In this document: piece after piece, positions 276 through 54,570 of the stretch
Layout of the letters: the number at the start of each line of letters is the position of its first letter
How positions within the stretch are numbered: the first letter of the stretch is position 1
Assembly (NCBI RefSeq): GCF_014839805.1
Contig: NC_051124.1
Span: forward strand, 7,130,001 to 7,194,000
Length of the DNA: 64,000 nt
From: Manduca sexta
Lineage: Eukaryota > Arthropoda > Insecta > Lepidoptera > Sphingidae
Direction: 5' to 3'
Program-made: the position numbers and the translations under genes
The notes under the pieces: model-generated
What the model was told of the DNA's origin: nothing
Database searches by the model: none
Seen by the model: only the letters and a program-made list of their open reading frames with translations

Positions 276-2767
276 TGTAAATATGATGGAAAATATATGA
301 CCAATATTTATCAGATAATCGATACCTATGTTTATTTACGTCCCGGCATGACTGTGGCAAGGGCGGATTTATTGCTATTTTAGGATCTTACGCAAACAAA
401 TTGGAAAGCTTTTCATAGTAGGAAACTCTCAAACCTTCGCTTTTCTTTGATATGCAAATAAAAATAAAATACTTCCAATTTGCACTAGCAAGGGGATTTG
501 GAGCTTTACTATATTCTTCAATATCTGTTTCAGCCATTTAACAGGGTCTAAATGAAAAGATGATTTGTCCAAATACAATATCGTTAACAGGCAACTTTTT
601 GTAATTTATTTTATGTTTTTTGCTCTTATATTATATATTTTTAGGGGGTGCAGTGGGGTCGTTTTACCGAGCATGAGCACAGTAACTGCACTGCACCTGA
701 TAGTAAGTGGTTTGGAGTGCAATAGAATGTCAACTAACGAGACATGATTACCCTTCAGCAGTCGACACAATTATGCCGGCTTGTTGGAACCGACTACACA
801 GGCTGATACTGGACCGCGATACACTTACGTGGGCTACTAGGGCGAGTTTTAACCTTGTATACGGTGGTCGCTATCCGGGCGGATTTAAAATATATCCAAC
901 CACCAGCACGTTTAACATGTCCTATAATAGTCAGCAGTAAATGTCCTTCAAACCGGAATATAATAGTATATACATTCTTCATTCATATCTCCACCAGCTA
1001 AATTTAGTATCATTTACCCATGACTCTATAGAATGTTTTCCTACGTTGCTAGATGTAATTCAGGTTCGGCACTTACGTACTTTTATACCACCCATATCGT
1101 TTCCATATTTGAACGGAATTAACTGGGACCGACGGTGTGCTCTCGGTAAGACAAAATAATAACTCAAAAGAATGTTCGTACACGTCACGTCAAGCCGGCA
1201 AATCGATTAAAACATATTACTTAACGTCGTAAAAAGCGTACATACATTCTCACGAGAGTTTCGACAATTGAATTCCCACAGGACTTAATTAGGTGCCAAA
1301 ACGAGACCCGGACACGCGTGAACATCATCAATTAACTGGCAATTAACTCAATTAATAGCCAGACGAGTATCGGAAACGTCAATAGGATCAACATAATACG
1401 ACGGACGGTCGGCAATAAAGAAATCAATCAGCGGATTAGGTATTTCAAATCAATAAAAATCAGAAAAGGCCATAATATTGGACGTATATACATATTGTTT
1501 GCTGGATGTGTCTTGGTTTTACTTGAGATGCATGATTTTTATGCCAATAAATAATAAAATAGTTTATTTTATAATCACAAGTTATTATTATTAGTTTAGA
1601 AGAAATAGATAATAACTTGATTAAAATATATAATGCGTAAACCAGAAGTGGTGTAATTCTGGCAAGTCTCTTATTCTGCAGCGAACAAAATACAAGCCGA
1701 TGAATGTATAGGTAGAGGGATAAGATTCTAGCATTGATTATTGCAGAGCAACAAATAAATTGTTGACATACGAGATTGAAATGTAATATCATTTACGAAT
1801 TTTTTCCCATATATTATTAATACTAAACTTAAAGGCGCCTAACAATCTGAGTAAACTTAACTGCAGCTACAATTAACAACAAAATAACTTTTATCTGCCA
1901 AGCACGCTTCAAACCTCCTTCAAACAACGCTCTTGCTGCATCCAGCGCGTCTGTGAGTCTAGCCGGTCGCGTTTAGTTCTCATGGGAGTATGCGAGGCGG
2001 CTCGTGTGATGCGCGGGAGGAGGGGGGAGCCTGTGGAGGGAGGTGCGGCGTGTTTGAAGCACAGGTGTGAGACCAACTCCGCCGCACAGCGTTATTAAAC
2101 TATGGTTAATTTTTATTGGAATCGCCACATTAGGCCATCTATTGTTCAACTATTAGTTGATAATATGGTTTTCGTGTATTTGATGTTTTGTTGCATTTGA
2201 ATGCTCATTACGAACTTGAGTATGATAATTAGTGAAATATTATTATATACAATATATGTATTGGATTAGCTACAGGAAACTTTTAGGCATTTATAAAAAT
2301 TGGAGTCAATATATATTTGGGCAAATTTCTTTCTGAAGTAGGTATCTGTCAGTTTGGCATCTCACATTTTCTCCTAATTTATAAGTCAGTATCGCGAGGT
2401 TAGCTGAAGGTAAGTGACGGCAGTCAGCCAGATAAATAGATAGAGAGCAGATTCTACAATATCAGATCCATGGATAAGCTTTCGACCTTCAAAGAAAAGA
2501 ATAAGATTAAAAAAATAGAGAGGGTGGTTTAGGCTTCCAGAAATCTGATATTACATACAAAAAAATAGCAAGCCGCCCATTTAAACTTTGGTATAATGAT
2601 GAATAATTTCCAACAAATTGCAATGTATACGCAAATCGTATTTGATTCCCAAGAGCAATTACTGTTAACCAGCAAGAGGCGTCATAAGTATCATAGGCAA
2701 GAAATCGTTATAGTCCTAAATTGGTTATATACGAAAATAACGTCGAAAAATTATATTGTGCTTCACA
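276..2767. other. Intergenic, no gene recognised
   Basis: Mostly AT-rich sequence. A 77-codon open frame at 707-940 has no recognisable family, and its end runs into a fragment (about 925-965) of the dispersed repeat called family B here. A CpG- and GC-rich patch at about 1930-2095 stands out and is listed separately. Nothing else is supportable. Confidence 0.6.
1930..2095. other. GC/CpG-rich island in AT-rich DNA
   Basis: About 165 bases with many CG dinucleotides and G-runs (for example 'gcgggaggaggggggagcc' near 2011) inside sequence that is otherwise strongly AT-rich. No long open frame and no repeat family is recognised. It could be a promoter or non-coding first exon of a gene whose body lies outside the window, or an unrecognised repeat. 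Confidence 0.3.
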
Positions 2768-3030
2768 ACAACATCACGCGTGTATCCCCAAAGGGGTATG
2801 CAGAAGCGCAACCAGGGTATCCACTTTTCGCTAAGTGTGTTCCGACCCATGATGTGATAGTAGACGAGCCTATCGCCATATTGAGTACAAATTCCAGACT
2901 GCGGGTTGATACTGAGCAGAAAAACCCAAATATCACTTTGCCCGACCCAGGATTCGAACCCAGGACCTTAGAGCGCTATCATACCAACTACCGCGCATGT
3001 AGTACAACTATGCCACCGAGGCGGTCATCA
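2768..3030 (-). repeat. tRNA-headed SINE, family A
   Basis: Read on the minus strand the element starts at about 3030 with 'cgcctcggtggcatagttgt' (A-box-like), followed by 'gggttcgaatcctgggtcgg' (RNA polymerase III B box), and ends near 2780 with a segment around 'tacccctttggggata'. The same organisation recurs at 7656-8195, 9775-10013, 38655-38925 and 54800-55075. The 180-codon open frame running over it is not a gene. Confidence 0.75.
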
Positions 3031-4734
3031 GTCGGTTCATATGTGATTACTAAAAACGAATATATCCCAAAATCTTTATTTTATTATATTTTCTTATTTC
3101 CTTTGGCTATTGGAATAATTTTTACACGAAAACATTAATTCGGCTTTCGAATAAAGATAACTTATATCAATGTGACCATGACATTGATAGTAAAAAAATA
3201 AATAATCAACACAATATTCGAAATAATTTTTTTTTCTTTAAAATCGTTTCGAGCTGTAAACCAGTTCGTATTGTTATGTTCGTATAACACGTAAACCTAA
3301 CTCAAGACATATCGGGCCCGTTAATTTAATGGGGAACCTTAATGTGTGGCCGACACGATTGAATTTTTGGAACAATTCTCTTTAGCGATATAACCAATTG
3401 AGGGTATTTTGTTACGACCATGGTATAAAGTATATCAATAGAACAATATCAAGGTTGAATATTATGAAATTTGTGATTCGTTTCACATTAAGTTGTTCTC
3501 ATTTCATTATTAAGGTATCGAAGGAATCTTTCGGTTTTATGGAAGTTTGAAGCAAATACCGTGAAAAGCCGGCGTGGAGTATCTCTTAGAAAAATATTGG
3601 AATATGTCCAAATAAAACTATTTTTGGATTTCATCGCGGTTTTTTTTACTACAATTTTCTTCCGAAGCGACGCGACGTTTATAACTTTGCAGCCATCATG
3701 GTCACGGGGTGGACTAAGGGTCCTCCGAAATGTCAACGATACAATATCTACCTACATTTTACAAAAGCATAAAATGTTAAATGTTGCTGATGACGGTCCG
3801 ACCTACTTAGAATGGAATTGGAATATGTTATATTTGAAATAATATTTAGTCATTATAATATATCTTTATAGAATCTACAATCGTTCATTACTGCATATTA
3901 AACCTACTAACGGAAACTTTACACAACTTATTCTGGATATCAAATCATAATTCATTATAAGCAATAGTCTTTTAACTGACATTTCCCGTAAGCAATTCGC
4001 TAGAATCCATCAACAAGAAAAAATAAAAGTTCATTGAAGTGAAAGCGATACTTTAGAAAACAAACTGTTTATTGTTTGGCACAGGATAAGAGGCTTTGGG
4101 AACGTCATGTTGACTATCCAATTTACGTCTTACCACCCTCAAACTAAAGGAAAGTGAGAATAAGGTATGCAACAATAAACAAACAAGATAAGTAGATAAG
4201 ACCACCACTTGTGAAATGAAATTGACAAAATATTTTGCAGATTGTCATGTTTGTTGACAGCAAATCTCTTCAAAGGGATTAACAATGCTTTGTTCAATTT
4301 TTTACAATGGATATAAAGGAGATTAAGTGTGAGGGAGGATTGTCTATTCATCTATATTATATTAATAGTACGGTTATGTGTTCTATGGTGATGGTAAATA
4401 TTAAATTAGTAAGGAAGGGATAATTGATATTAACGTAAGTAGGTCGCGCTCCAGGATCAACCTGTGTGTATCCGGTTTTAAACAGACCGACATAATTGTT
4501 ACTACTGGTGAAAGGGGGGTAATAATCTCTCTTAAATTGTCAGTCTTTCTGGACCCTACTTCACTTATTACCTAGCACTAGGTGCAATGTGCTGCTTGAT
4601 GATGCATGGTGAGCCAGTTTAAAAAAAACTAGAGATTCTTACGAATTCTACCCAACGATAACCGTATGATGGCTCCACTAATAATACCACATTAAATAAA
4701 AATGTTTTATAGCACGAGTAAAACATTATGTTTT
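3031..4734. other. Intergenic, nothing recognised
   Basis: AT-rich sequence with short random open frames on both strands (longest about 93 codons). No recognisable coding signature, RNA gene or repeat family. Confidence 0.5.
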
Positions 4735-21951: not shown

Positions 21952-24900
21952 ATGAAAACTGTCGTAATCCTAGCGGGGCTGGTGGCCCTGGCACTCAGCA
22001 GTGCTGTACCACCTCCCAAGTATCAGCACCATTATAAGACCAGTCCGGGTAAGAATAACGATTTTTTTTTCATTCTATTAAAATTTGTTCGCATTCCCAA
22101 AAAATAACTACTTCTTTTCTTGGTCATGATAATTTGTTCTCAGGCAGTGCTTCGATTGTGCTTGACAAGACTTTACATCTTACAATCTTGGACATCATTC
22201 AACCCCCCATCGGATTCGGTATCAATTATGCTCTAATAAAGCAAAGATTTAATGTAATTTGTTTTTATTTTCAGTGGACGCCATATTTGTAGAAAAACAA
22301 AAGAAAGTTTTTTCTCTTTTCAAAAATGTAAACCAACTCGACTACGAGGCTGAGTATTACAAAATCGGCAAGGACTATGACGTTGAAGCTAACATTGACA
22401 ACTACTCGGTAAGTTTTAATTCAATACACGAAGGACTAATAAAACATAAAAAATATATACTTTAATATTAATCCATTTTGCAGAACAAGAAAGTAGTCGA
22501 AGACTTCTTGCTGCTATACAGAACTGGCTTCATGCCGAAGGGCTTTGAATTCTCTATTTTCTACGAAAGAATGAGGGAGGAAGCCATCGCTCTTTTCGAG
22601 TTGTTCTACTACGCTAAGGACTTCGAAACTTTCTACAAGACAGCTAGCTTCGCCCGTGTTCACGTTAACGAGGGCATGTTCTTGTATGCATACTACATTG
22701 CGGTCATCCAACGTATGGACACTAATGGTTTAGTTCTCCCAGCGCCTTACGAAGTCTACCCACAATACTTCACCAACATGGAAGTCCTATTCAAGGTCGA
22801 CCGTATAAAGATGCAGGACGGTTTCCTTAACAAGGATCTCGCCGCGTACTACGGCATGTATCATGAAAATGACAACTATGTATTTTATGCCAATTACTCC
22901 AACTCTCTCAGCTACCCCAACGAGGAGGAAAGGATTGCATACTTCTACGAGGACATTGGTCTAAACTCGTACTACTACTACTTCCACATGCACTTGCCTT
23001 TCTGGTGGAACTCGGAGAAATACGGCCCATTCAAGGAACGTCGTGGTGAAATCTACTACTACTTCTATCAGCAATTGATCGCCCGTTACTACCTGGAGCG
23101 TCTTACTAACGGCTTGGGTGAAATTCCTGAATTCTCCTGGTACTCTCCAGTGAAGACCGGCTACTACCCCATGCTCTACGGTTCCTACTATCCATTTGCT
23201 CAAAGGCCCAACTATTACGATATTCACAATGACAAGAACTACGAGCAAATCCGTTTCTTAGACATGTTTGAAATGACCTTCTTGCAATACCTGCAGAAGG
23301 GACACTTCAAGGCTGTGAGTATTATATGTACAAGCTGCAATTATAAAACATTCTATTATATTTATGTAACATTGGCCACAGCTTGTAATTTCTTTGTATT
23401 TTTTAGTTCGACAAAGAAATTAACTTCCATGACGTAAAGGCTGTTAACTTCGTGGGCAACTACTGGCAGGCTAATGCTGACTTATACAACGAAGAAGTTA
23501 CCAAACTCTACCAACGTTCCTATGAAATCAATGCTCGTCATGTACTTGGTGCTGCTCCTAAACCTTTCAACAAGTAAGAATATCCTTAATAAATTTATTA
23601 ACAGTTATTTACATAAATACTATATAATATTCTTACAAAATAATCATGATGCAATAAAGGATCTTAGTTCATATATTATGTAAAAATCCTATCCTATCGG
23701 TGATTCATAATTATGTTTATGTTATCCAATTGGGAAAATAAGTAACAATTAAATGAGGCGAATATTATGGAAATCTAATTTAATTCAGTACTAGAAATGT
23801 ATGTTTTAAATTGTATTAATAGTGATATTCATTTTTCGATTTTTTTATTGTTTTAAATGACGCGACGATTTTGCTGTTCGCCTCATGAGGCGAACTTACC
23901 ATGGTAAGCGACACTACTGCCCATAAACAGTAGAAACACCATCCAACAACTTGAATTACAAAGTATTGTTTGGTATTCCACTGCGCTCGCCATCCTGAGA
24001 CATTAGGTGTTAAGTCGTATTATCTCCAGTAGTCATACTGGCTGGATTTTAACGGATACATGCTTAAATAGAATCGGACAGGTTTTTTTGTATATATTGT
24101 TCATTATACCTTTATCTTTTTAACGTCTGGTTATAATAATAGATAGAACACAATATTTGAATATATTAAATTTGTAATCATTTTGTTACAGGTATAGCTT
24201 CATTCCAAGTGCACTTGACTTCTACCAAACTTCGCTGCGTGACCCTGTCTTCTACCAGCTCTACGACAGGATCATTAACTACATCAACGAATTCAAACAA
24301 TACTTACAGCCCTACAACCAAAACGATTTGCACTTCGTTGGTGTAAAGATTAGCGACGTCAAAGTAGACAAATTGGCCACATACTTCGAATATTACGACT
24401 TTGACGTCAGCAACAGCGTATTTGTAAGCAAGAAGGACATCAAGAACTTCCCCTACGGTTACAAGGTCCGTCAGCCCCGCCTTAATCACAAACCATTCTC
24501 TGTCTCCATCGGCGTCAAATCTGATGTTGCTGTTGATGCAGTTTTCAAGATTTTCTTAGGTCCTAAATACGACAGCAATGGCTTCCCAATTCCATTGGCT
24601 AAGAACTGGAATAAATTCTACGAACTGGATTGGTTCGTGCACAAGGTCATGCCTGGGCAGAACCACATCGTCCGCCAGTCCAGTGACTTCCTATTCTTTA
24701 AGGAGGACTCTCTGCCCATGTCTGAGATCTACAAACTGCTTGACGAAGGCAAAATACCCTCTGACATGTCAAACTCATCCGACACGCTGCCTCAGAGATT
24801 GATGCTGCCAAGAGGTACCAAGGACGGTTATCCATTCCAATTGTTCGTGTTCGTGTACCCGTACCAGGCTGTGCCTAAGGAGATGGAGCCATTCAAGTCG

Positions 24901-25071
24901 ATTGTGCCAGACAGCAAGCCTTTCGGATATCCGTTCGACCGCCCCGTCCACCCTGAATACTTCAAGCAGCCCAACATGCACTTCGAGGATGTGCACGTTT
25001 ACCACGAGGGAGAACAGTTCCCGTACAAGTTCAACGTTCCTTTTTACGTTCCGCAAAAGGTTGAGGTTTGA
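21952..25071 (+). CDS. Arylphorin subunit, alpha type (hexamerin storage protein)
   Basis: Secreted larval storage hexamerin: made by fat body, carried in hemolymph as a hexamer, later reabsorbed as an amino-acid source for metamorphosis (family knowledge). Five coding exons by GT/AG junctions and frame: 21952-22048, 22275-22408, 22484-23314, 23407-23573, 24192-25071, giving 702 residues and intron phases 1, 0, 0, 2. [16 protein letters not shown] is a signal peptide. N, M and C hemocyanin-type domains follow. Phe and Tyr are very abundant, as in [13 protein letters not shown] near residue 240. Two of the three CuA-type histidines are replaced, so no copper binding is expected. NYS sequons occur (IDNYS, ANYSNS). 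Intron 4 carries a family B fragment. The length and the tandem partner match Manduca arylphorin alpha; the subunit name is from recall. Confidence 0.96.
23836..24050 (-). repeat. Family B fragment inside arylphorin alpha intron 4
   Basis: Minus-oriented copy: 'ttttattgttttaaatgacg' near 23843, 'cttaccatggtaagcg', 'attccactgcgctcgccatc' near 23975, then decay. It accounts for much of the length of this 618-base intron; the equivalent beta intron is 147 bases. Confidence 0.65.
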
Positions 25072-25360: not shown

Positions 25361-27269
25361 TTAGAAATTGCACTTACTACTAGTTTCAAATAATATGTGT
25401 AAATTTTAACTGAGGAATGATAAAATTCATAAGTAGTTCGGAATTGTTGTGTTATTATAAATATGTATGTCATGAAGATCCTTCATCATAGAAAGGATTC
25501 ACCTACTTGCGTAGTTCCAAAATTTTACCCTTCATTCACAGTCCAATTAGTCGCCATGCCATCCAATAAAAACAGACAATAGTAAAACAAAAACACGAGT
25601 TTTCTTCTAGTAACCAGTATAATATAACTGCAAATTAAAAACACTTAAGTGAGAAGGCCACGCTTTAAGAATTATGATTTGGATACTTCAATAATACCTT
25701 TGTTAATAAAATATACACATTATATTAGGTACGTATTATAAGAACTCAATTAAATAAATAGTATCTCGTGAGGTAATGAGATGTCATACGTTCTGCACTT
25801 GAACAATGAAACAAGACCTAACAACCGCGGCAGCAAACTATCTGTCGGTTTGACATACATAGCTAATACAAGTACCTCTTAGTTTTTTTATACGTCATGG
25901 ACTTTTTAATCCCGAAGGGGTGGCAAAGGAACAATTAGGGTTACTTACATTTCGTTGAATTTATTTCTTTCTGTACCATGTTGATTTACTATAAACCAGT
26001 ATAAACAGACTGCAAGCTTTTTGCGTCTGAAGGTATTTGCAGACATAGTAATTATATTATATTATATCATACACACAAAGGGATCAATGAACTCCCTATG
26101 AGATGACAAAAGTGCATAGATGACAATGGTGCCTACTTTGATTAATTAATTATATTTAAAAAAAAATCTACTTTATATACCTCACATACGAAACGCGATT
26201 TCATATGTAAGGTACCCAATATTAGGTATTATAGGATCGAGTGCCCCAGCGGAGCATGGATAATTTCTTCATATTTTTTGCTTTGTGTCTTCTTTACTAT
26301 ATATTTGGCCTTTTTCTACCACAATGGCCTAATTAATGTTGGGAAGAAAGTACCTATATTATTATGGAGAACTAATACTTACTTTTTTACTGCCTCACCT
26401 GCATGGAAAATGAAACCTATATACGAATGATTGTGAAAATGATTTTATATTTGTTAGAAGAAGTAAAAAGTAACTCCTGAACGGATTAAGATGAAATTTT
26501 GCACACGGATATATCATGCCCTTATTTATTTTCTAGGCTTCTTATCCCAGTAGTTGCCCGTGGGATATATTTTTTTTTTATTTAATGTTTTAAGTAGATG
26601 GCGCTAGCATCGTACAGATGGCGCTAGCATTGTACAGATGGCGCTATGGATAGCTATAGTGATTTAGGGATGCTTTAATGGGAAAGGCTTCTGACTCGGA
26701 CGAAGTCGCGGGCAATACTTAGTAGCTCATGAATGAATTTCCAGGACTTTATCACAGTTGTGTACCAAAATTCATCCAAATACATTCAGCGTCTTATGAG
26801 TTTATGGATAACATATTTCCAAAAATCTTAGTTATACTGTAGGCAATAGGATAGTTTAAAGGATTTTCGGTATGCACGTCGATGAATTATTCAAATTTAT
26901 TAACATGAAGCTTTACATAACAGAAGAAATGTAGGTTATAAGTTATAACGATTGTAATGTGGTCCTTTGAGGAGGGATATATGATGATTTGAGGTCGTTG
27001 CTAAATAAAGACATAGATTTTTTTATTTTAATTTAGTTTTTCATCTCTGTAGCTTCCTTACCAAATTTAAAAAATATTTGTATAATTAAAAATCACATTA
27101 TCGTTGAGAACTTTAGGCTAGATTCCAATAACGAGTATAGGGTAAGTATATACTAAAAATTCCATTTAATGCATACATATTAAGTTACCATATTACATTC
27201 CAAAAATATAATAAAACATGAGTAAGTCGTGAGTTACCGAACAACCTGTAAGACGTTCTTTGACAATTT
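25361..27269. other. Intergenic between the arylphorin genes, proximal half
   Basis: AT-rich. Contains a family A tail fragment near 25900-25935 ('taatcccgaaggggtggc') and a transposon-like stretch at about 26455-26720 with 'gaacggattaagatgaaa' and 'gcccgtgggata' wording plus a short tandem repeat (listed separately). No gene recognised. Confidence 0.45.
26597..26648 (+). repeat. Short tandem repeat, three units of 'gatggcgcta'
   Basis: Three near-identical 20-base units built on 'agatggcgctagcatcgtac' follow each other, the last decaying after 'agatggcgctatgg'. The same 'gatggcgct' core appears singly near 17040 and 61475. Confidence 0.7.
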
Positions 27270-32444: not shown

Positions 32445-35362
32445 ATGAAGACTGTCATAATCCTAGCGGGGTTGGTGGCCCTGGCCCTCGGCAGCGAAGT
32501 GCCTGTCAAGCACTCCTTCAAAGTTAAGGATGGTAATATTAAAATTTTATATTTTTTCTTTAAATTCAATCAAAATATATTTATGATAATTAAAAATGTT
32601 ATTTGAAAATTATAGTTTTCTATTTGATTGTCTGGTAACCACCTCACGTTCGACTGTAAAACAGCCCAAGTTGTTCTTTTGGGTAATGATAAAAAAAACA
32701 TGGATAAAAAATTATTTGTGTGACAATCAGCTAAAGATTTTGTTCTACGATAGTAATCGTCGTGACTGCCCATAAACTGGCAACATTTTCAGAACTGTGA
32801 ATTACAAATCACCGCATGCATTGTAATATTTTGCCCAATTCAATGACAATACATTCCTAATATAATTTTTGTCATCATAGTTGATGCGGCTTTCGTCGAA
32901 CGTCAAAAGAAGGTCTTAGATCTTTTCCAAGATGTCGACCAAGTAAATCCTAACGATGAGTACTACAAGATTGGCAAGGAATACAACATCGAGGCTAACA
33001 TCGACAATTACTCGGTAAGAAAATAGAAAAGAAACATATTGATTTCATAATTAATTATTGAGGAAAAGTAATATGTGTGCAATTTCACTTTGGCAGTCAT
33101 TTTATTGCGAACTAGACTATCCGAATAGGTCCATTTAATATCAAAAATACTATATAATAATATCTGGAAAGATTCCTTTTATTATCCACAATTATAATAA
33201 TCATTATTGTGTATTCAATATTCATATCATTTTTATTTTCTTTTACAGAACAAGAAGGCCGTCGAAGAATTCTTGCAGTTATACAGGACAGGTTTCTTGC
33301 CTAAGTACTATGAATTTTCACCCTTCTATGACAGACTAAGGGACGAGGCCATTGGTGTTTTCCACCTCTTTTACTACGCTAAAGATTTTGATACGTTCTA
33401 CAAATCTGCCGCATGGGCGCGTGTGTACCTCAACGAAGGACAGTTCTTATACGCCTACTACATTGCTGTGATTCAGCGTAAAGATACTCAGGGCTTCGTT
33501 GTACCAGCACCGTATGAAGTCTACCCTCAATTCTTCGCAAACTTGAACACTATGCTCAAAGTCTACCGTACCAAAATGCAGGATGGAGTTGTTAGTGCCG
33601 ATTTAGCTGCACAACACGGCATCGTAAAGGAGAACAACTACTACGTATACTATGCCAATTACTCCAACTCATTAGTGTACAACAACGAGGAACAGAGACT
33701 GTCGTACTTCACTGAGGACATCGGCTTGAATTCGTACTACTACTACTTCCACTCTCACTTGCCTTTCTGGTGGAATTCTGAGAGATACGGAGCACTAAAA
33801 TCGCGCCGTGGTGAAATCTACTATTACTTCTATCAGCAATTAATGGCACGTTATTACTTTGAACGTCTCTCGAACGGCCTGGGTGACATTCCCGAATTCT
33901 CATGGTACTCACCAGTCAAGTCTGGCTACTATCCACTGATGTCTTCTTATTACTACCCCTTCGCTCAAAGACCCAACTACTGGAACGTGCACAGTGAAGA
34001 AAACTACGAGAAAGTACGATTCTTGGACACGTATGAAATGTCATTCCTTCAGTTCCTCCAAAACGGACACTTCAAAGCGGTATGTATAACAAAATGTATG
34101 TTTTATTTCTCAGTATACAAGATTCAGTTTAATAACGACATGTCATTTATTTTCAGTTTGACCAGAAGATTGACTTCCACGATTTCAAAGCTATCAACTT
34201 TGTTGGAAACTACTGGCAAGATAATGCTGACCTGTACGGTGAGGAAGTTACCAAGAACTACCAACGTTCATATGAAATTATAGCCCGCCAAGTGCTTGGT
34301 GCTGCACCTAAACCATTCGACAAGTAAGTGTACATGATTTATATTTATGTCCTATCACAGTATAGTAAAGAACACAATTATGATCGTTTTATTAAACTAT
34401 GCCTAGTTTTACTATGCTAATATATGTCTCAATTTTGATATAACATATACTTATTTTTTTTTTGTTACAGGTACACATTCATGCCCAGTGCTTTAGACTT
34501 CTACCAGACGTCTCTGCGTGACCCAATGTTCTACCAACTTTACAACAGAATTCTGAAGTACATATATGAGTACAAGCAGTACCTGCAACCGTACTCTTCA
34601 GAAAAACTGGCATTCAAGGGTGTCAAGGTGGTCGATGTTGTAGTAGACAAACTGGTTACCTTCTTCGAGTACTACGACTTTGATGCGTCCAACAGCGTTT
34701 TCTGGAGCAAAGAGGAGGTTAAATCTAGCTACCCCCATGATTTCAAGATCCGTCAGCCACGCCTTAACCACAAGCCATTCTCTGTCTCTATCGACATCAA
34801 ATCTGAAGCTGCCGTTGATGCCGTTGTCAAGATATTCATGGCACCTAAATACGACGATAATGGATTCCCTCTGAAATTAGAAAACAACTGGAACAAATTC
34901 TTCGAGCTGGACTGGTTCACATACAAATTTGTTGCTGGTGACAACAAAATCGTGAGGAACTCAAACGACTTCTTGATCTTCAAGGACGACTCTGTTCCCA
35001 TGACTGAGTTGTACAAATTATTAGAACAAAATAAGGTTCCACACGACATGTCCGAGGATTACGGCTACCTGCCTAAAAGACTGATGCTGCCAAGAGGTAC
35101 TGAGGGTGGCTTCCCATTCCAGTTCTTCGTTTTCGTATATCCATTCAACGCTGACAGCAAAGATCTTGCACCGTTCGAGGCCTTCATCCAGGACAACAAA
35201 CCTTTGGGCTATCCATTCGACCGTCCCGTTGTTGACGCTTACTTCAAGCAACACAACATGTTCTTCAAGGACGTCTTCGTATACCATGACGGCGAGTACT
35301 TCCCGTACAAGTTCAATGTTCCTTCCCATGTGATGCACTCAAACGTTGTTCCTAAACACTGA
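32445..35362 (+). CDS. Arylphorin subunit, beta type (hexamerin storage protein)
   Basis: Second larval serum arylphorin subunit, expected to co-assemble with or parallel the alpha type. Exons 32445-32532, 32881-33014, 33249-34079, 34157-34323, 34471-35362 give 703 residues, with junction phases 1, 0, 0, 2 as in alpha; exons 2, 3 and 4 have exactly the same lengths (134, 831, 167). [17 protein letters not shown] is the signal peptide; the N-terminal linker is shorter than in alpha. It has the same Tyr/Phe-rich core ([21 protein letters not shown]) and the [12 protein letters not shown] start of the C domain region. The ATG was chosen over an upstream in-frame TTG because it heads the signal peptide and follows the initiator. 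Length and tandem position match the Manduca beta subunit from recall. Confidence 0.96.
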
Positions 35363-50396: not shown

Positions 50397-53300
50397 CTAC
50401 TCATAAACTTTTTCTTCTGAACTATCATCATTGAATACATGAATAATGTAATCGTAAATACTATAATGCTTTTTCGGTGTCACTGGCGAAAAAACTGGCT
50501 CGGTAATGTTATAGTTATAATTTTGTGGATCGTCGTGCGCTGCTGAATATACTTCTTGGTCATTAAAGGGATTATTATTAATTATTTCCTCGCTTAATTC
50601 ATCTTTCTCTAATATAACTTTACCTACTTTTGGATCTATGTTTTCTACTGACACTTGAGCTTCAGTAGTAGAAGTAAATTCTTTTCGAGAATAATCTTTC
50701 CGGTAAATATTTTTATTCTGCGTGAAGTTTCCTTTTTTTCCGTATTGTGCTTTTTTTGCTTTATAGTCAAAAGGTGGCTTTCTTTTTGCGGCATAGTCAA
50801 AACTCGAAGAACCTAGTTTGAACATTGAACCCTGTTGAAATTTTAGGTCATCGATGTCTTTATTATACAGGGCTTCTTCACTGACGATATCTCTCTGCAA
50901 TACTTCTTTATTAACTTCCATTTCTAATTTTTTCACTGGAACTTCCACTATAGCAGTAGAAGTATATTCATTTTGAGAAAACTCCTTGGGGTAAACATTT
51001 TTATTTTGATCAAAGCTATCTTTCTTTTCATATAGATTCTTCTTTGCTTTGTAATCAAAAGGTGTCTTTCTTTTTGCAGCATAGTCAAATTTCGAAGATC
51101 CAAGTTTGAATATTGAAGCCTCTTGAAATTTTACGTCATCATCATCATTATTATATAGAGCTTCGTCACTAATGTCATCTTTCTCTAATACTCCTTTATT
51201 AAATTTCATTTCTAATTTTTCCCTTGGATCTTCAACTTTAGCAGTAGAAGTAAATTCATTTTGATAAAATTCCTTGGGGTAAATATTTTTATTTTGATTA
51301 AAGCTATCTTTCTTTTCATATTGATTCTTCTTTGCTTTATAATCAAAAGGTTGCTTTCTTTTGTAGCATAGTCAAAACTAGTAGAACCTAATTTAAATAT
51401 TAAATCCTCGTCATCGTTTAAGTCATAATTTTCCTCAAAACTATCCATAAAACCTTCTCGTTCTTTTGATTCATATTCTTTGAATTCTGTAGAATCTTCT
51501 TTTTTTCCATACTGGCCTTTTTTTGCACTGTAATCAAAAGGTTTCTTTCTATTTCCATCATAGTTTGGTTTCGAAGACGGATCATAAGTGTCCGTTCCAT
51601 ACCACTTTTTGGTGACACCAGGTCCACCATAGTTTTCAACTTTACCTTCCCCTTTATGTGTGACAACAATTTCTTTAACCATCGCATTTGGCAATTCAAA
51701 TAATTGTTTATCCTGCACAACTAAGTCAAGAGGGTATCCGGGACTCATTATAGCTTTATTAAATTCCATACTCTTCAGAGAATGCATTACACCGGTAGAA
51801 TATTTAGCATACGGTGCAACAAATACAAAAATTTGGAGTGGTACACCTTTCATTGTGCCTCTTGGGAGTATCAATCTTGCTGGGTATCCGATTTGTGAGT
51901 CGACGGTTTTAAGAGGCAAAGAGTCTAAACCAAATTCAGCGTCTTCAACTTTCTTGCGTAAATTTCTTAAAGACATAAAATCTTCAGAGAAATGTTTCAT
52001 GTCGTCGGATGTTCTTGAAATAATATTTGAACCAATTTTGAAGCGGTACTCAAATCTGTCAAGCAGAACAAATGAATTTTTCTTTTTTGCTAGTTCTCCG
52101 GGCAATATTTTCGGACCCAGATAAACTTTAACCACACCTCTTTGTGTTACTAATGACGAGACGTTGATTTTAATTGAGAATGGTCTGTGATTTAACCTAG
52201 GTTGTGCAATTTTGATTTGGTACGTAGAATTGTCGGCAGCGCTTTTCAATGCATCCGTTGCATCAAACTCAAAGTAATCGTAAAACGTCATAACTTTTTT
52301 AACATCCACATTGATCACTTCTACCCCAGGGAAATAAAGTTCATTTCTTGCGTATGAAGGTAATAATTTAAGCGCCTCGTCCACCATGTCAACTATTTTT
52401 TTGTTCATTTTCCAAAATATTGGATCCCTTAGCGATGTCATATAATGTTCTAAAACCGAAGGACACCTAGAAAAAAAAATTACATAATTTTATTAATTTA
52501 GTAAATAAGTTTATGAAAATTCATCACATTGTACAATTTTATGCATTCTTAAATTACCCGTTATCGCTGTGAGCTTTGCCAAGGAGCTGCCGTGCCAAAG
52601 TCTCATAACTTCTGTCACCCGTTACAAGGATTTCCATTAAGTGATTCAATATTTGAGTTTTATTGTACCCAGCATCTCTCTGCAAGTATTTCAACTTAAA
52701 TAAATCATTATTGCTCTCCACGCGCTCATGGACGTTTATGACACGTTGAGCATAAATATAAATGTTAGTTTTATTACTTTAATGCTTACCATATGGCTTA
52801 CAACCGTTCCAATGTTGTTCTCAATGGTCTGTAACAATGCAACGTCTTCATTGTCTGGCAACTGTACAGGTGACGGTCTAGAAATAAATTCGTTTCCGTT
52901 TGTATATATTAACATCGGATCGTAAGGAACATCAAACAAAGTGGGATCGTTCCAGGCCCAACTTTCAAGCTCTGGCAATCCATTAGCATATCTCTCTAAA
53001 TTATATCTGGCCATGAATTGCTTCATCATTTGATATACGTCCTCTCCGTATCGTCCATCAATGCCTATATTGAACCAAGGTGCTTGTTTAAGTTTTCTAA
53101 TAAAATAATAAGAATTTAAACCGATATCTTCACGGAAATACGCCAGTTTCGATTCATCGTTATTGTCATAGAAGATTGATGTGTAATTAGCATCCAGTTG
53201 GTACGCGTTGCCTTCGACGTGGACGCCCTCAGACAGTTCTATGTTTACACCGCCAGCTAATTTGGTTCCTTCCAATATAACATCCTTACGTATGAAATAG

Positions 53301-54570
53301 TTGGGTAATAATTCATATGGAGCAGGTACTACTAATCTTTCAGTATCTTTCCTATTTGCGATTGCCAAGTAAATGGCATCTAGGTATAAACCACAATTTA
53401 AATTTTGTCTTGCCCATGCTGCTCCCTTGAAGAAAATATCAAAGTTTTTGGCATAGTATAAAATATCATATATTACTTCAAGTTCACTAAGGTGATCAAT
53501 ATTATATTCAGTAAATATTTCTCCTTTCGGTAAAAATCCTTTTCCGTTTTTCAATTTCTGGAAGTTAGGTAACGCGTCTGGTTTCTGAAAATATCCACAA
53601 AATTATTTATAAATTTTGAAATAATCCAGCTTCCCAAGTATATTTGAAATGTGTTTTTTTATTTATTTTACCCAATAATTTTCAGTTGTTAACTCCGATG
53701 TAAATTCTTGTGCTGTTCTAATAATAACCGGGTCGCTGCTGTCTTCACATACGTTTTCAAATAATGGAAGAACTAGTTTCTGTAAATGCATCCATTGTGG
53801 TGGAGCTGTAAATATATTGTAAAAATATATTGTATTAGCAAAAATACATGAGCAAAAGAGATACTTTCTCTAGCCATTTTTGTTTATTGTAAAAGAGATG
53901 TAACAGATAAGTGTCACTTTAACGTACGTAGAAATTAAATTAATTTATTTGTACAGGTATAATTATAATGGCATCAAGAAAAATATTTGTTTAAAATCTG
54001 TTCTAGTCACACTTTGATGCCATCGTTTAGATTAAACACTTTCCGACGTGTTCTATCTGATCTCATCTGATCTGATAAGCGAAAGTGTGTCTTATTATCT
54101 AAATAGCGCACGGTTTTTTTTTGCTTTGTATGAAAAGACGAGCTTGCCGTTCGCTGGATGGTGAGCGATACGACGATATACAGTAGAGACACCATCCAAC
54201 ACATTGAATTACAAAGTATTGTTTGGTATTCCAATGCGTTCGCCATCCTGAGATATGAGATGTTAAGTCTTATTATGTCTAGTAGTTACACGGGCTACAA
54301 TGTTCTTCAAACAGGAACACAACACTGACTACAGACTCTTGCTTGGCGGCAGAAGGAAATTATATTTTTTATATTTTTCGTTTAAAGAATTAAATATTAA
54401 ATAGTATAAGGGTATTTCTACTTCAGGCTTTCGATATGGTACAGTCATTGAATAATAAAAACGAATTATGATTAGGACTTACCATTATTTGACGATGGTC
54501 CAGTAGGAACTTTAATTAAATACCCTGAAGTCCCGACCAGGAACGTTACAACTATTGTTAATGCTTTCAT
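50397..54570 (-). CDS. Divergent hexamerin with tandem-repeat C-terminal extension, frame broken
   Basis: Exons in transcript order: 54570-54483, 53805-53672, 53584-52790, 52724-52558, then exon 5 from 52466. Exons 1, 2 and 4 are 88, 134 and 167 nt, exactly as in arylphorin beta; phases 1, 0, 0, 2. Signal peptide MKALTIVVTFLVGTSG. The hexamerin core (about 670 residues) shows [47 protein letters not shown] and LRDPIFWKM; all CuA-type His positions are lost. A Lys/Tyr/Asp-rich extension with three 96-residue units follows. As read, exon 5 stops at 51212 (812 residues) because unit 1 has T4 at 51359-51362 where the other units have T5. The other frame is open to 50397, about 1,084 codons in all. 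Either an assembly error or a real truncation. The start of exon 4 uses a weak acceptor (CATGAG) but its length supports it. A TATA box and initiator are present upstream. Confidence 0.8.
50535..51398 (-). repeat. Three tandem 288-bp (96-residue) coding repeats
   Basis: The anchor 'catagtc' (complement of the GACTATG in FDYA) occurs at 51367, 51080 and 50792: spacings of 287 and 288 bases. Each unit reads FKLGSxxFDYAxKRKxPFDY, then KAKK, QNKNxYxKEF, an acidic EALYNxDxDD stretch and KFQ. A degenerate partial unit (KKPFDYSAKKGQYGKKEDS) precedes them near 51490-51560. The one-base deficit in the first spacing is the frameshift noted in the gene entry. Confidence 0.9.
54112..54352 (-). repeat. 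Family B copy in intron 1 of the repeat-tailed hexamerin
   Basis: Minus copy: 'gacgagcttgccgttcgctg' near 54137, 'ggtattccaatgcgttcgcc' near 54224, 'cttcaaacaggaacacaaca' near 54304 and 'cttgcttggcggcagaag' near 54337. The host intron spans 53806-54482. Confidence 0.7.

Follow-up and report, generated by a model that had tools for sequence, protein, structure and literature searches.

We identified in Manduca sexta a hexamerin whose C-terminal extension, an arm built of repeated DYxAKK modules, marks, as judged by sequence comparison, a separate lepidopteran class that we propose here as the DYxAKK-arm hexamerins. The gene lies on the minus strand of the 64,000-nucleotide stretch of DNA analysed (the window), and the proteins of the class carry the module after the C domain, end in a tail of the type (P-T-[VI]-Y-D..VYE) and fall on a single branch of a phylogenetic tree. 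Using as the query residues 560-1084 of the read-through, i.e., the Manduca product continued across a one-base frame break (see below), we found 41 proteins at E <= 0.01 among 7953 candidates, and a profile built from 15 of these 41 proteins recovered 144 proteins at a cutoff of 1e-10 among 7993 scored, the best 120 of which were examined. Full-length members of the class scored at least 980 bits against this profile and class fragments 475-669 bits, and ordinary arylphorins and larval serum proteins scored at most 434 bits. Six long hexamerin models (P0052-P0055, P0057 and P0059) have intermediate scores (530-760 bits) and are not counted as members; five of the six contain two copies of a core motif. 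The two protein searches thus assign at least 58 clusters to the class, namely P0001-P0051 and seven fragments (P0056, P0058 and P0060-P0064), the latter assigned by 54-69% identity alone, and this gene is not alone in having the extension, contrary to what a first, sequence-only reading of the window had supposed.

Judging by species names, the class is present in 12 moth and butterfly families, namely, Sphingidae, Noctuidae, Erebidae, Nymphalidae, Papilionidae, Pieridae, Hesperiidae, Lycaenidae, Pyralidae, Crambidae, Gelechiidae and Tortricidae. No name from Bombycidae, Saturniidae or Plutellidae appears among the class matches listed, which is not proof of absence. Public gene models already include these proteins, labelled as arylphorin-like or hexamerin-like; for instance, Helicoverpa P0004, Spodoptera P0003, Papilio P0021 and Galleria P0047, filed as hexamerin-like or arylphorin subunit alpha-like, belong to the same class as the Manduca gene. 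Such models are 45-69% identical to the Manduca model and most of the complete ones have the tail, but they differ from it in how many copies they carry, in the spacer sequence and in the length of the arm. In a tree of 61 rows, computed by a quick method mostly from core columns and including four long outgroup rows, 39 class rows are set apart by a branch with an SH-aLRT support of 100 and a stem of 1.88 changes per column. A 12-row branch of lepidopteran arylphorins is separate from these 39 rows (supports of 100 and 99), and Manduca is placed beside ten noctuoid rows.

Read literally, the gene has five exons between 54570 and 51212, and its 797-residue product is letter-for-letter identical to the public model P0001, "arylphorin subunit beta-like [Manduca sexta]", to which the exons join. 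Exon 1 (54483..54570, minus strand, as are all features of this gene) contains the start codon and an N-terminus, MKALTIVVTFLVGTSGYLIKVPT, that by eye resembles a secretion signal; it is followed by exon 2 (53672..53805), exon 3 (52790..53584) with the hemocyanin N and M domains (Pfam PF03722 and PF00372), exon 4 (52558..52679), located by tblastn of P0001, and the first part of exon 5 (51656..52466), which encodes the end of the M domain and the Ig-like hemocyanin C domain (PF03723, E = 2.4e-51, ORF residues 46-278). Pfam matches the C domain over its whole length, with no large insert; the domain ends at about 51656 and is followed, within the same last exon, by an A+T-rich stretch (32% G+C) that holds the repeat array. 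The product is therefore a hexamerin of the hemocyanin superfamily, with the N, M and C domains of that family and, judging by a class member (P0014), its predicted fold, and the order first read from the sequence, a hexamerin core and then a repeat array, is borne out. We rejected splicing-out of the arm as an obvious explanation, since its simple form is unlikely when the arm and the C domain share the last exon, and since fragments such as P0002 and P0006 run in frame from the C domain to the tail.

Tandem Repeats Finder reports a 288-bp array at 50667..51409 (minus strand; period 288, 2.6 copies, 82% matches, score 950), and three 288-nt copies were delimited by a repeat finder at 50553-50840, 50841-51128 and 51129-51416, the latter two being 71% and 64% identical to the first, along with an 80-nt sub-repeat that has a fourth, shorter copy at 51498-51577. 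The three 96-residue repeats proposed by the sequence-only reading thus exist as a period, but the elementary repeat is a module of about 36 residues, present in four copies in the Manduca read-through. Each 96-residue unit consists of one module plus its own spacer, and sequence comparison identifies it as Manduca's own multiplication of the shorter module. On the minus strand, the first, divergent module (NRKKPFDYSAKKGQYGKKEDS) is located at 51491..51553 in frame with the core, and the second (PFDYKAKKNQYEKKDSFNQNKNIY, 51279..51350), the third with its FKLGS lead-in (FKLGSSKFDYAAKRKTPFDYKAKKNLYEKK..., 50991..51110) and the fourth (FKLGSSSFDYAAKRKPPFDYKAKKAQYGKK..., 50703..50822) are in another frame, frame B, which closes with the conserved class tail ...KKHYSIYDYIIHVFNDDSSEEKVYE and a stop codon at 50397..50480. 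The motifs pointed out earlier (FKLGS, FDYA, PFDYKAKK, QNKN and EALYN) were all found in the extension.

The core of the module reads FDYKxKKxQYxKKxDYxAKR. Over 101 copies, a set in which both P0001 and the window read-through are counted, the two Asp-Tyr pairs are kept at 94/93% and 84/91%, the Gln at 78%, five Lys at 72-84% and the Arg at 70%. A module profile grown from nine seeds has matches in every one of the 51 main class rows (P0002-P0051 plus the read-through of the window, of which P0001, being a double, was left out), in three of the seven class fragments (P0056, P0058 and P0064; none is detectable in P0060-P0063) and in none of 65 other hemocyanin-family proteins. Copy number ranges from 1 to 6 over the 51 rows, and P0001 itself has one module. 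We counted the hexapeptide DYx[ASTN]K[KR] 110 times, spread over 38 of the 44 arms analysed (the other seven of the 51 rows lack a cutting anchor), compared with a mean of 0.6 and a maximum of 3 in 200 shuffles; outside the arms it was found in one of the 65 non-class proteins and one of the 44 class cores. In noctuids the distance between copies is mostly 73-86 residues, and the first copy is 137-145 residues away in several proteins; a step of 95 residues occurs in one further row, Parnassius P0039. The two Manduca spacers have no close match among the 58 class rows (best E = 0.005, 26% identity). Nor does the extension belong to a free-standing repeat family, as the 324-residue extension ORF matched no protein of 178-567 residues at E <= 0.1 among 2452 candidates; it matched no Pfam family either.

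The Manduca array is interrupted by a one-base frame break at 51350..51359 (minus strand): frame A, coming from the core, reaches FDYATK at 51359, and PFDYKAKK at 51350 is in frame B; P0001 reads the same. Consequently, the continuous reading of about 415 residues suggested at first does not hold, the break being hidden when only the two ends of the region are given. Past the break, frame A adds 48 residues and meets a stop codon at 51212 (51212..51358), giving the tail of the 797-residue P0001, which is unrelated to that of the class. Frame B contains three modules and then KKHYSIYDYIIHVFNDDSSEEKVYE at 50397, an ending with counterparts in Helicoverpa (...PTIYDFLFHAFDHDYSPEIKVYE), Papilio (...PTVYDFLFTNPFDNFDSTEEKVYY) and gelechiids (...PTVYDYILPYYNPEDYYDEVNIDSRVYE), and it is open for 324 codons downstream, compared with a mean of 55 and a maximum of 140 codons for the longest run in the three sense frames of 500 first-order Markov sequences of 970 nt. 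Because other species share both the module and the C-terminal tail, the frame B extension and its ending are protein-coding, and the unusual Lys/Tyr/Asp-rich C-terminal extension noticed in the sequence-only reading is supported. Read literally, however, the Manduca reference cuts the arm after the first module, with the tail and three of the four modules only beyond the break.

Since the sequence after the break still reads as class modules and tail, we take the break to be either a sequence error or a recent event. That it is real, so that Manduca makes a short-armed protein of 797 residues and what remains of the array is decaying, seems to us rather unlikely. The window and P0001 do agree letter for letter, and AATAAA signals occur at 51200 and 51005, soon after the stop at 51212; but such signals are common in an A-rich stretch, the match between the two carries no independent weight if P0001 is a prediction from the same assembly, and the frame past the break has retained 324 open codons with the modules and the class tail. 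Furthermore, the C-terminus of Spodoptera littoralis P0008 also fits a shifted reading of the array, being compatible with it at 12 of 18 positions in the best fit when two shifts, six offsets and two sites were tried (maximum of 10 for 1000 shuffled tails). P0008 is thus likely to contain a second frame break in an A-rich repeat, which fits either a recurrent sequence error or indel-prone A-rich repeats.

The composition of the proteins was examined in the 33 of the 51 rows with usable ends, the other 18 being fragments, fused or cut models, or rows without an anchor. Phe+Tyr averages 10.2% in the class cores (10.5% in that of Manduca) and 10.0% in the arms, and because the extension is not richer in these residues than the core, the earlier suggestion of nutrient supply is weakened. 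Tyr alone makes up 6.4% of the arms versus 5.0% of the cores, and Lys rises from 6.9% in the cores to 13.1% in the arms. Past residue 680, a single Cys occurs in the 32 public rows, in P0042. Arylphorins are defined by a Phe+Tyr content above about 15%, and methionine-rich storage proteins by a Met content above about 4%. As eight arylphorins contain 17.9-21.0% Phe+Tyr (one BJHSP2-like control, 12.2%), the class cores are too low in these residues for membership among the arylphorins, from which they are also separated in the tree; their Met content of 2.5% (33 rows) rules out a methionine-rich storage protein by composition alone. The lepidopteran arylphorins compared (Manduca beta, P0077; Bombyx SP2/SP3, 3wjm; Antheraea, 3gwj; Galleria Cibeles/Demetra, 8po9 and 8ca9) have the same N/M/C architecture and predicted fold as the class, but are only about 30% identical to it, and the arylphorin rows tested are without the module. 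Honey bee HEX 110 is likewise a hexamerin that owes extra length to a stretch of biased composition: within its C domain it is reported to carry 291 residues of Gln/Glu-rich insertion (PMC2861669). That description, as far as it goes, sets it apart from a Lys/Tyr repeat after the C domain, and we rejected a HEX 110-like, Glx-rich identity for our protein as it has no large C-domain insert, its arm follows the domain and Gln makes up 2.5% of the arm. Our search of the open-access literature found no description of a DYxAKK arm, though a closed-access paper may name the gene or the arm.

An AlphaFold2 model of the short-armed relative P0014, computed with 42 aligned sequences, has a pLDDT mostly of 80-95 in the core and below 50 at residues 656-793 and 798-820, with a short, weak helix in the tail. 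In a Foldseek search with the P0014 core, the top solved matches are hexamerins, the best being 8po9 and 3wjm, with E-values of about 1e-45 and TM scores to the target of 0.78-0.82 for the top six. On the model of this relative, the class is predicted to combine a hexamerin core with a disordered arm.

What such an arm might do can be suggested only tentatively, and the possibility that we rank first is that it is a flexible cross-linking tether that fixes the hexamer in clots or cuticle. The disordered, Lys/Tyr-rich DYxAK(K/R) arm would be exposed on the hexamerin core; the conserved Gln and Lys of each module may be transglutaminase sites, and Tyr beside Lys may join quinone or dityrosine links. 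If six subunits assemble, the particle would have six arms with 6 to 36 modules per hexamer, and transglutaminase or oxidised tyrosine would bind it into clots or cuticle. We favour this reading because the arm is predicted to be exposed, holds several copies of the module, and retains a Tyr as well as a Gln with Lys beside it. In Drosophila, a hexamerin is reported as the main protein in transglutaminase-made aggregates on bacteria and is termed a humoral procoagulant (PMC2820530); as transglutaminase targets in the hemolymph, these clot hexamerins share the way of working proposed here. Three Bombyx storage proteins are reported in immune complexes (PMC5310873). The transglutaminase work used ordinary hexamerins, however, so an arm is not needed for cross-linking. 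Further points against a tether are that Phe+Tyr is no higher in the arm than in the core (10.0 versus 10.2%) and Gln just 2.5%, that no module is detectable in four of the seven class fragments, that the hexapeptide is absent from six of the 44 arms, that most of the arm is missing from a literal reading of the Manduca reference, and that constraint is weak within the Manduca array and modules are hardly better kept than spacers in the Galleria/Aphomia pair (values below); the function of the arm may also be dispensable, as Bombycidae, Saturniidae and Plutellidae are absent among the class matches listed. We know of no such arm in the Drosophila clot hexamerins. Our literature search returned no expression, proteomic or biochemical data on the arm-bearing class, and nothing useful on cuticle links or on arylphorin-like tissue expression. 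A bolder form of the tether reading, which we consider doubtful, is that a storage hexamer became a structural cross-linker in the moth and butterfly line, i.e., a six-armed hub whose disordered arms would be built covalently into clots or cuticle and whose module number would be adjusted in each species.

Next to the tether in our ranking, though on the whole unlikely, is a role in packing or uptake, in which basic modules and acidic spacers would make hexamers coacervate in the hemolymph or in fat-body granules, or a receptor would read the tail. The alternation of charge fits such a role, the mean net charge per 100 residues being +14.9 in modules and -7.1 in spacers with 35.6% of arm residues charged (33 rows), as do the predicted disorder of the arm and the short conserved C-terminal tail, whose ending pattern (last residues only) occurs in 27 of the 33 rows, with variants in four more (P0012, P0035, P0044 and P0045), whereas P0028 and P0051 have no such ending. 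Ordinary hexamerins, however, are stored without an arm (no module in 65). We give still less weight to the view that the arm expanded as low-complexity sequence under loose constraint and does no more than supply further amino acids for storage. The number of copies (1 to 6) and the length of the arm (156 to 619 residues in 33 rows) do vary freely, and constraint between the Manduca units is weak: dN/dS is about 0.49 both between units 1 and 2 and between units 2 and 3, of which the second pair is near saturation, hence constraint is modest and located in the motifs. But aromatic residues are not gained over the core, the hexapeptide is about 180 times more frequent than in shuffles, and over 14 pairs of species (two rows served at least twice, one tail value is spoiled by the fused model P0009, and gaps make up 9.2% of the module positions and 9.7% of those in spacers) identity is 74.4% in modules and 71.1% in tails, above the 56.0% of the spacers (cores, 80.5%), although in the Galleria/Aphomia pair the modules are hardly better kept than the spacers (51% versus 46%).

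It is also quite improbable that the arm is a processing substrate, cut at dibasic sites in each module to free short Lys/Tyr peptides or the core. Lys-Arg is indeed found at 1.77 times its expected frequency (111 versus 62.6 in 44 arms), and Arg occupies its module column in 70% of copies; Arg-Lys reaches 1.38 and Lys-Lys just 1.18 times the expectation. Furin-type sites carry an upstream Arg, and the commonest site, AKR, lacks it. Moreover, Asp-Tyr (2.69 times) and Phe-Asp (2.88 times) are more enriched, for which cleavage gives no reason, and the spacers between the sites are poorly conserved. Least probable of all, and by our estimate hardly to be expected, is that the noctuid arm is a cell-adhesion ligand: RGD tripeptides do occur, 1 to 3 per arm, in nine of the 44 rows, six of them named and all noctuid (Spodoptera, Helicoverpa and Mythimna) and three unnamed, but the Manduca arm and the other 34 rows have none, and the tripeptide is not conserved.

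The result defines a hexamerin class that the databases file as arylphorin although it fails the definition of an arylphorin, and whose arm is truncated in the Manduca model at least. It becomes possible to test whether hexamerins have roles beyond amino acid storage, because the arm, conserved and carrying motifs, could be removed with the storage core left intact; if cross-linking is true, the arm would also offer a natural design for a Lys/Tyr polymer.

The window contains several other genes. Two ordinary arylphorin-type genes are located on the plus strand at 22271-25071 and 32445-35362, the latter 88-100% identical by aligned piece to Manduca arylphorin beta (P0077) and the former 66-80%. 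At 37877-35856 on the minus strand is a very divergent hexamerin, 27-30% identical to P0001 and P0077 and 51-54% identical to a Leguminivora relative (the second half of P0043), which perhaps represents another separate hexamerin class. Downstream of the armed hexamerin, the exons of an EF-hand protein, which we take to be troponin C, occupy 46306-42884 on the minus strand and are 94-100% identical to pieces of public models. P0009 (Spodoptera exigua) and P0043 (Leguminivora) are models that fuse a hexamerin with this EF-hand gene; given these fusions and the gene order in Manduca, the two genes are neighbours in all three species seen. The plus strand also has a 189-codon open frame at 2569-3138 with no Pfam match, and a 20-bp unit (AGATGGCGCTAGCATCGTAC) is repeated 2.5 times at 96% at 26596-26646.
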